A stretch of 32,481 bases of DNA from Candidatus Methylomirabilota bacterium (lineage in GTDB: Bacteria > Methylomirabilota > Methylomirabilia > Rokubacteriales > CSP1-6): assembly GCA_036002485.1 (NCBI GenBank), contig DASYTI010000146.1, positions 1-32,481 of the forward strand, read 5' to 3'. The position numbers were made by a program, and so were the translations under genes. Shown piece after piece: positions 15,562 to 19,113 of the stretch (the stretch's first letter is position 1; every line of letters starts with the position of its first letter). The notes beneath the pieces were generated by a model that was given only the letters and a program-made list of their open reading frames with translations, made no database searches and was not told the DNA's origin.

Positions 15562-15680
15562 CACCCCCTCACCCTGCCCTCTCCCCCAATGGGGGAGAGG
15601 GATCAAAATTAAGAGCGCAGCACTCCGGAGCAGTTTTCATCCCTCTCCCCCGTCGCGGGGAGAGGGCGGGGTGAGGGGCA
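15562..15680. repeat. Inverted pair of REP-like hairpins (copies 2 and 3)
   Basis: Copy 2: arms 15577-15587 and 15591-15601 with an AAT loop, preceded by CCCCCTCACCCTG. Copy 3: arms 15641-15650 and 15657-15666 with a CGTCGC loop, followed by CGGGGTGAGGGG. The two lie in opposite orientation about 40 bp apart, a BIME-like arrangement, between the convergent ends of the propeller (15459) and OsmC-like (15697) genes. They could act as a transcription barrier or mRNA-end stabiliser. The remaining 15460-15561 segment shows nothing I can recognise. Confidence 0.85.
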
Positions 15681-15696: not shown

Positions 15697-16116
15697 TCAA
15701 GCCTTGACGGCGAGAGTGTCTACCTTCACGTCGGTCGCGGCCGCGACCGTGCGATAGAGGGGTCAGCGGCTCTTCCAGACCTCCACGAGCTCGTCCGCCT
15801 GCCCCTGGCTCACCCCGCGGAGCGCGAACGAGACGTTGATGCACTGGAAGCGATTGGGCTCCGCATCGCTGCGGATGCCCTCGATGGTCACCTCCATGCT
15901 CTCGAGCGGCACCTTCTGCTCGATGGCGTACTTCTCGATGAGGGTGACGCCGCACGAGGAGATGCCCGCGAGGAAGGCCTCGCCATTCGTCACCGCCTCG
16001 TTGGGCCCCGACGGCGAGTCGAGGATGAAGTGCTGCTGCCGCGCGCTGTTGAGGGAGCGGCCCGGCGTGCCGCTCGAGGAGGACCGCACCGTATCGATCT
16101 TCACGCCCTGGGCCAT
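15697..16116 (-). CDS. OsmC-family peroxide-reductase-like protein, probable selenoprotein (UGA at codon 118)
   Basis: OsmC/Ohr-family proteins reduce organic peroxides with two conserved thiols. Here the first is C55 in LAGISSCGVTLIEKYA. The second should be the Cys of a C-P motif near residue 118, but that codon is TGA (15765-15763): WKSR-[UGA]-PLYRTVAAATDVKVDT and on to LAVKA, ending at a TGA at 15699-15697. Reading the first UGA as selenocysteine gives 139 residues, normal for the family; stopping there gives 117 and loses the catalytic residue and last strand. A 7-bp hairpin with a GGCC loop lies 20 nt after the UGA. The ATG at 16116 is preceded by GGGAGGTG. OsmC-like selenoproteins have been reported in metagenomes, which supports this reading. 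The alternative is a nonsense mutation or sequencing error. Confidence 0.85.
15732..15749 (-). promoter_or_regulatory. Candidate bacterial SECIS element
   Basis: In the OsmC-like mRNA, CGGUCGC-GGCC-GCGACCG forms a perfect 7-bp stem with a GGCC tetraloop. Twenty nucleotides separate the UGA from the first loop base, and the first two loop bases are G. This fits the published bacterial SECIS rule: a short stem-loop within about 16-37 nt of the UGA with a G among the first two loop bases. The stem also encodes sensible protein sequence (TVAAATD). Confidence 0.7.
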
Positions 16117-18922: not shown

Positions 18923-19113
18923 TCAGCCCTCGCCTCGCGACGCCCAGGGGCCGCCGCTCAGCTCGAACGGCGTCAGCCCTCGCCTCGCGACGCCCAGGGG
19001 CCGCCGCTCCGCTCGAACGGCGTCAGCCCTCGCCTCGCGACGCCCAGGGGCCGCCGCTCAGCTCGAACGGCGTCAGCCCTCGCCTCGCGGCAGGGCCGCT
19101 CAGCTCGAACGGC
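18923..19113. repeat. 50-bp tandem repeat array, about 3.8 copies
   Basis: Units begin TCAGCCCTCGCCTCGCGACG and end CAGCTCGAACGGCG. They start at 18923, 18973 and 19023, with a fourth, internally shortened unit from 19073 to about 19113. The units are nearly identical: the second differs by one base (CCGCTCCGCTC for CCGCTCAGCTC). There are no unique spacers, so this is not a CRISPR. Diverged inverted relatives lie at 19190-19221, 20007-20028, 20074-20110 and 20122-20137. Confidence 0.92.

Follow-up and report, generated by a model that had tools for sequence, protein, structure and literature searches.

An OsmC-like selenoprotein was described in a survey of the Sargasso Sea (Zhang et al. 2005, PMC1088965), and it is listed with the motif UxxT (PMC9312934, PMC13188914). 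OsmC-related (seleno)proteins also form an NCBIfam family, NF041052; in the members examined, selenocysteine (Sec) occupies the first catalytic position (AFULMT) and the second position lacks the CP motif. In the Ohr/OsmC hydroperoxide reductases (e.g. 6mjn, 1n2f, 1nye), both positions are held by Cys. We analysed a stretch of DNA of 32,481 nucleotides from an uncultured soil bacterium of the Methylomirabilota (Rokubacteria; hereafter the window, meaning this whole stretch) that carries an OsmC-family gene with an in-frame UGA at codon 118, and we conclude, with a probability of about 0.9, that this gene encodes a redox selenoprotein of the OsmC superfamily in which UGA118 is recoded as Sec. 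The predicted protein is like the Sargasso Sea protein in its superfamily, in its in-frame UGA for Sec and in its bacterial SECIS element. The first-pass annotation had taken it for a member of the OsmC-like selenoproteins already listed; we had to abandon this assignment, since those are UxxT proteins with Sec first. In the window protein, by contrast, the only CxxT motif, C55-G-V-T58, keeps its Cys and Sec would lie in UPLY, at the second position; for the Sargasso Sea protein, the site of Sec was deduced from its motif. In the papers searched, supplements and preprints aside, we came across no account of an OsmC protein with Sec at its second position.

An OsmC-family gene with an in-frame UGA

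The gene is read on the minus strand. Its features, in window coordinates, are the following.

15697 to 16116, minus strand: putative OsmC-family selenoprotein gene with UGA118 read through, 139 residues, from the ATG at 16116-16114 to the terminal TGA at 15699-15697; Pfam OsmC match (3.6e-13) across the UGA; OsmC fold in AlphaFold2
15979 to 15981, minus strand: codon of Glu46, at the place of the Ohr catalytic Glu
15952 to 15954, minus strand: TGC codon of Cys55, the first catalytic Cys, in the motif CGVT (CxxT)
15763 to 15765, minus strand: predicted Sec-UGA, codon 118, aligned with the second catalytic Cys (CP motif) of OsmC/Ohr
15733 to 15748, minus strand: candidate apical stem-loop of a bacterial SECIS, GGTCGC-GGCC-GCGACC, 6 bp (7 bp with the outer C-G pair 15749/15732), its loop 20 nt past the UGA

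Re-reading of the coordinates and of the frame confirmed the OsmC-family open reading frame with an in-frame UGA at codon 118, and its match to Pfam OsmC (PF02566, gathering cut-off 27.5 bits) spans this codon. With UGA read as Cys, the match reaches 50.2 bits over residues 37-132; it falls to 36.4 bits when the UGA is skipped and to 31.8 bits when translation stops there, indicating that both residue 118 and the tail are part of the OsmC fold. This agrees with the earlier proposal that the 21 sense codons between UGA118 and the terminal TGA complete the fold in a protein of 139 residues. An alignment with Ohr 6mjn pairs Cys55 and residue 118 with its two catalytic Cys; residue 118 also aligns with the Cys of the OsmC-like protein 1lql, and its codon is TGT in one homologue (L111). 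The UGA thus lies, as had been claimed, where OsmC proteins have the second catalytic Cys of their C-P motif, and C55 is indeed intact.

Two repeat structures were observed near the gene. Nested inverted repeats lie just 3' of it at 15565-15678 (22-nt arms 95% and 26-nt arms 85% complementary) and look like an interspersed intergenic palindrome of the source genome. Further along the window, at 18923-19089, a 50-bp unit forms a tandem array of 3.3 copies (98% matching), with a two-component operon on one side and a TetR-like gene on the other.

The UGA and the tail are conserved among homologues

A search of 60 related genomes yielded 26 matching genes in 25 genomes, the window's own included. 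Each of them contains exactly one internal TGA, which in the alignment always falls in the codon 118 column (26/26) and is followed by PLYRTVA or PLYGTVA. A wider scan, covering one genome per species for 84,980 species, found 33 loci: codon 118 is TGA in 32 of them and TGT (Cys) in one, while codon 55 is TGC in all. The lone TGT copy, L111, comes from a Tectomicrobia MAG and is distant (36% identity). The record titles of the scan loci name Rokubacteria (Methylomirabilota), ANGP1, two 'Bacillota' MAGs and one 'Actinobacteria' MAG; the copy in the last (L107) matches a Rokubacteria copy (L086), which suggests that it is probably mis-binned. The relatives' set and the scan set overlap, and 41 distinct sequences are left once duplicates and the locus L106 are removed.

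Over the two overlapping sets, the tail stays in frame after TGA or TGT in 58 of 59 loci. Few parts of the protein are as well conserved as the tail, in which R117-U-PLY-TVA-A is invariant in 30 aligned sequences; Glu46 and Cys55 are invariant in the homologue alignment as well, and Arg20 is found in most, not all, members. L106 is the sole TGA homologue that is scrambled, from two codons past the UGA (about 3351 onward), and this may reflect decay or misassembly. Close homologues degraded after the stop had been named as an observation that would refute a selenoprotein; L106 may be such a case, against the 58 loci that keep the tail. None of the neighbouring genes is shared by the entire family. 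In one Rokubacteria sub-clade, genes for a methyladenine glycosylase and a Rieske ferredoxin lie 3' of the OsmC gene (L089, 3433-4344).

A conserved hairpin downstream of the UGA fits the bacterial SECIS model

The first reading of the DNA had pointed to a 7-bp hairpin with a GGCC loop that starts 13 nt past the UGA. This hairpin is present, and its invariant core comprises 6 bp starting at 14 nt (GGTCGC 15748-15743, loop GGCC 15742-15739, GCGACC 15738-15733). We used as a model the four criteria published for bacterial SECIS (bSECIS) elements (PMC13188914), and the hairpin agrees with all four, having a loop of 4 nt, a stem of 6-7 bp, a G in the first two loop positions and a spacing of 20 nt; the SECIS check that had been suggested for this region was positive. 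The apical energy (MFE) is -11 to -14 kcal/mol. Scanning the whole source genome with the SECIS model did not find a second strong element.

Synonymous codons would give the helix in about 23% of cases, so that the hairpin in one sequence is weak evidence alone; what makes it significant is that it is fixed across 41 distinct homologues. All six inner pairs are kept in 40 aligned sequences, and L106 is the one distinct TGA gene without a complete helix; the loop variants are GGNC, GGCT, GGGT, GGGA or AGGT, while the RNA of the TGT (Cys) homologue L111 is devoid of the hairpin. Codon choice in the stem hardly varies (ACG, GTC, GCG/GCA, GCG, ACC), whereas the flanking codons are variable. The two Thr codons of the stem differ and are each fixed, ACG at one end and ACC at the other, as pairing in the helix requires. 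At the five stem codons the 41 distinct sequences have a pairwise synonymous identity of 97.2%; the value drops to 52.9% over the 70 codons that precede the UGA and to 49% over codons +12 to +20. These sequences are related, which calls for caution, yet neighbouring codons in the same sequences vary freely. The stem being invariant, no covariation could be counted in the 40 aligned sequences. The folding energy of the whole 48 nt, compared with synonymous shuffles, is not striking in individual sequences (mean z about -0.9), which is why the case is built on this particular helix and the codons that form it. The codon pattern indicates that the hairpin is under synonymous selection as a putative SECIS element. 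Nearly invariant across lineages whose proteins are down to about 50% identity, it is a convenient element for recoding assays.

Selenocysteine machinery in the relatives and in the source genome

SelA was detected above cut-off in 36 of the 38 genomes searched (the source genome included) and SelB in 35. In the same-genus genomes G001, G002 and G004, selA, selB and tRNA-Sec are all present, and ARAGORN placed a tRNA-Sec (TCA) adjoining selA in these three genomes and in G006. SelA is also encoded in ANGP1, in both 'Bacillota' MAGs and in the Tectomicrobia MAG. One ANGP1 genome, G095, the source of L082, encodes SelA twice at full length, each gene on a contig of its own.

The source genome is a draft, 95.7% complete, in 253 contigs. 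A search for sel genes in it had been put forward as a test of the selenoprotein reading, and the outcome is mixed. Two selD genes were found, L016 (contig C51) and L017 (contig C54), one of Sec type with a TGA at codon 25 and the other without TGA, but the draft contains no SelA, no SelB above cut-off and no tRNA-Sec. The absence of selC/selB had been listed as an observation that would refute Sec, and on its face the draft shows it. The best SelB match in this genome (C222, 104 bits) was discarded because it is confined to the GTPase domain (query 3-226) and similar matches occur in every relative; we took it for another translation GTPase, probably IF2. Contigs C193 and C219 flank about 17 kb that are present in G004 and missing from the assembly. 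C193 breaks off, and C219 ceases to be collinear, where repeats lie; these repeats recur in the selC-selA-selB region of G004, and C219 continues past the repeat into other sequence. Given the sel genes of the relatives and these flanking contigs, the absence of selA, selB and selC is best read as an assembly gap. Rearrangement or recent loss is a less likely cause, but the genome keeps four TGA-containing selenoprotein genes, those for SelD and for three OsmC proteins.

Alternative readings of the UGA

If the UGA were a true stop, as in standard annotation, which ends the gene there, the product would be a 117-residue protein or the locus a pseudogene with a decayed tail, as the degradation of L106 past the UGA might suggest. 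The invariant R117-U-PLY-TVA-A tail, its retention in frame in all other loci and the drop of the Pfam score to 31.8 bits without it make this very improbable. A second reading accepts the read-through and questions the residue: UGA118 could be decoded as Cys or another amino acid by a suppressor tRNA, by UGA reassignment or by Cys misinsertion, given that the identity of the residue is invisible in DNA and that the source draft is without selA, selB and selC. We regard this too as improbable, if to a lesser degree, for TGA is a real stop about 22 codons later in the gene and in more than half of the homologues, the element past the UGA conforms to the SECIS model, and the relatives encode SelA, SelB, SelD and tRNA-Sec. 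Genome-wide reassignment of TGA was rejected on the same terminal stop, which ends this OsmC gene and many of its homologues; a sequencing error at the TGA was rejected as well, the codon being common to many independently assembled MAGs. The selenoprotein reading, proposed at the outset from the letters of the DNA, is instead strongly supported. Every computational test except one speaks for it, among them the TGA in all 26 relatives' genes, a Cys homologue in the same column, the SECIS element, the Sec machinery of the relatives and the Sec-type SelD. The standard reading of UGA as a stop truncates the gene in dozens of genomes and loses a redox residue.

Fold and proposed function

The AlphaFold2 model of the window protein has the OsmC fold (pLDDT 89.3), and its best 33 structural matches are all of OsmC/Ohr/YhfA type, with Z from 15.8 to about 13 (1ml8, 15.1; 6mjn, 14.8). 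Judging from the alignment with 6mjn, Glu46 would be the equivalent of Ohr Glu51. Established Ohr chemistry has one residue attack the hydroperoxide and its partner then close a bond within the molecule. We infer that, in vivo, SelB and tRNA-Sec would decode UGA118 as Sec, directed by the hairpin that starts 14 nt downstream, and that Cys55 (helix 1, CxxT) and Sec118 (at the start of the PLYRTVA helix) would take the positions of the Ohr/OsmC catalytic pair. One residue of the pair would attack a small organic hydroperoxide, the other would close a Cys55-Sec118 selenenylsulfide, and a cellular dithiol would presumably reduce the latter.

By analogy with Ohr, we slightly favour a thiol/selenol peroxidase activity: this chemistry is fitting because both catalytic positions and the Glu are kept, together with Arg20 in most members. 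These same residues argue against a Sec-containing protein of another kind, a thiol-disulfide or persulfide redox protein or a small-molecule or metal binder built on the OsmC fold. Such a role is nonetheless a serious, somewhat less probable, candidate: the fold is no nearer to Ohr than to the uncharacterised YhfA-type OsmC proteins (1ml8, 2egt, 1lql), the protein scores 25.9 bits against the Ohr model TIGR03561, far below its cut-off of 88.85, and the family has no constant gene neighbour.

Comparison with other OsmC selenoproteins

The family NF041052 resembles the window protein in belonging to the OsmC superfamily and in occurring in Rokubacteria, with one member in the source genome itself (C47). 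The window protein, however, scores 24 bits against this family, whose cut-off is 95, and departs from its Sec-first pattern, codon 55 being TGC and the UGA lying at 118. The source genome's other two TGA-containing OsmC genes, L132 (C181; GAUTVLT) and L133 (C47; AFULMT), both have the TGA at the first position; C181 ends at the contig edge, and the G004 relative of its gene has the second Cys. The TGA-OsmC paralogues of Methylomirabilota (L132, L134-L138, L140-L147) come from the same organisms and likewise combine an in-frame TGA with a second redox residue, but theirs is the arrangement with Sec first (e.g. GAUTSMT) and Cys second (e.g. RCPVHRT), whereas the window protein would have Cys first and Sec second. 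The Ohr/OsmC hydroperoxide reductases share with it the fold, both catalytic positions and the Glu of helix 1, and differ by using Cys twice. Since Sec comes first in the known and in the paralogous OsmC selenoproteins, the family described here would be their mirror form. Rokubacteria and their relatives probably carry both mirror forms, at times in one genome. The two selenium positions would then have been reached separately; the Se-S bond would be a shared intermediate, and the forms would differ in the attacking residue. Because these organisms also have paralogues in which the fold carries its selenium at the opposite position, they provide a natural test of an attacking versus a resolving role of selenium in a two-residue redox protein.
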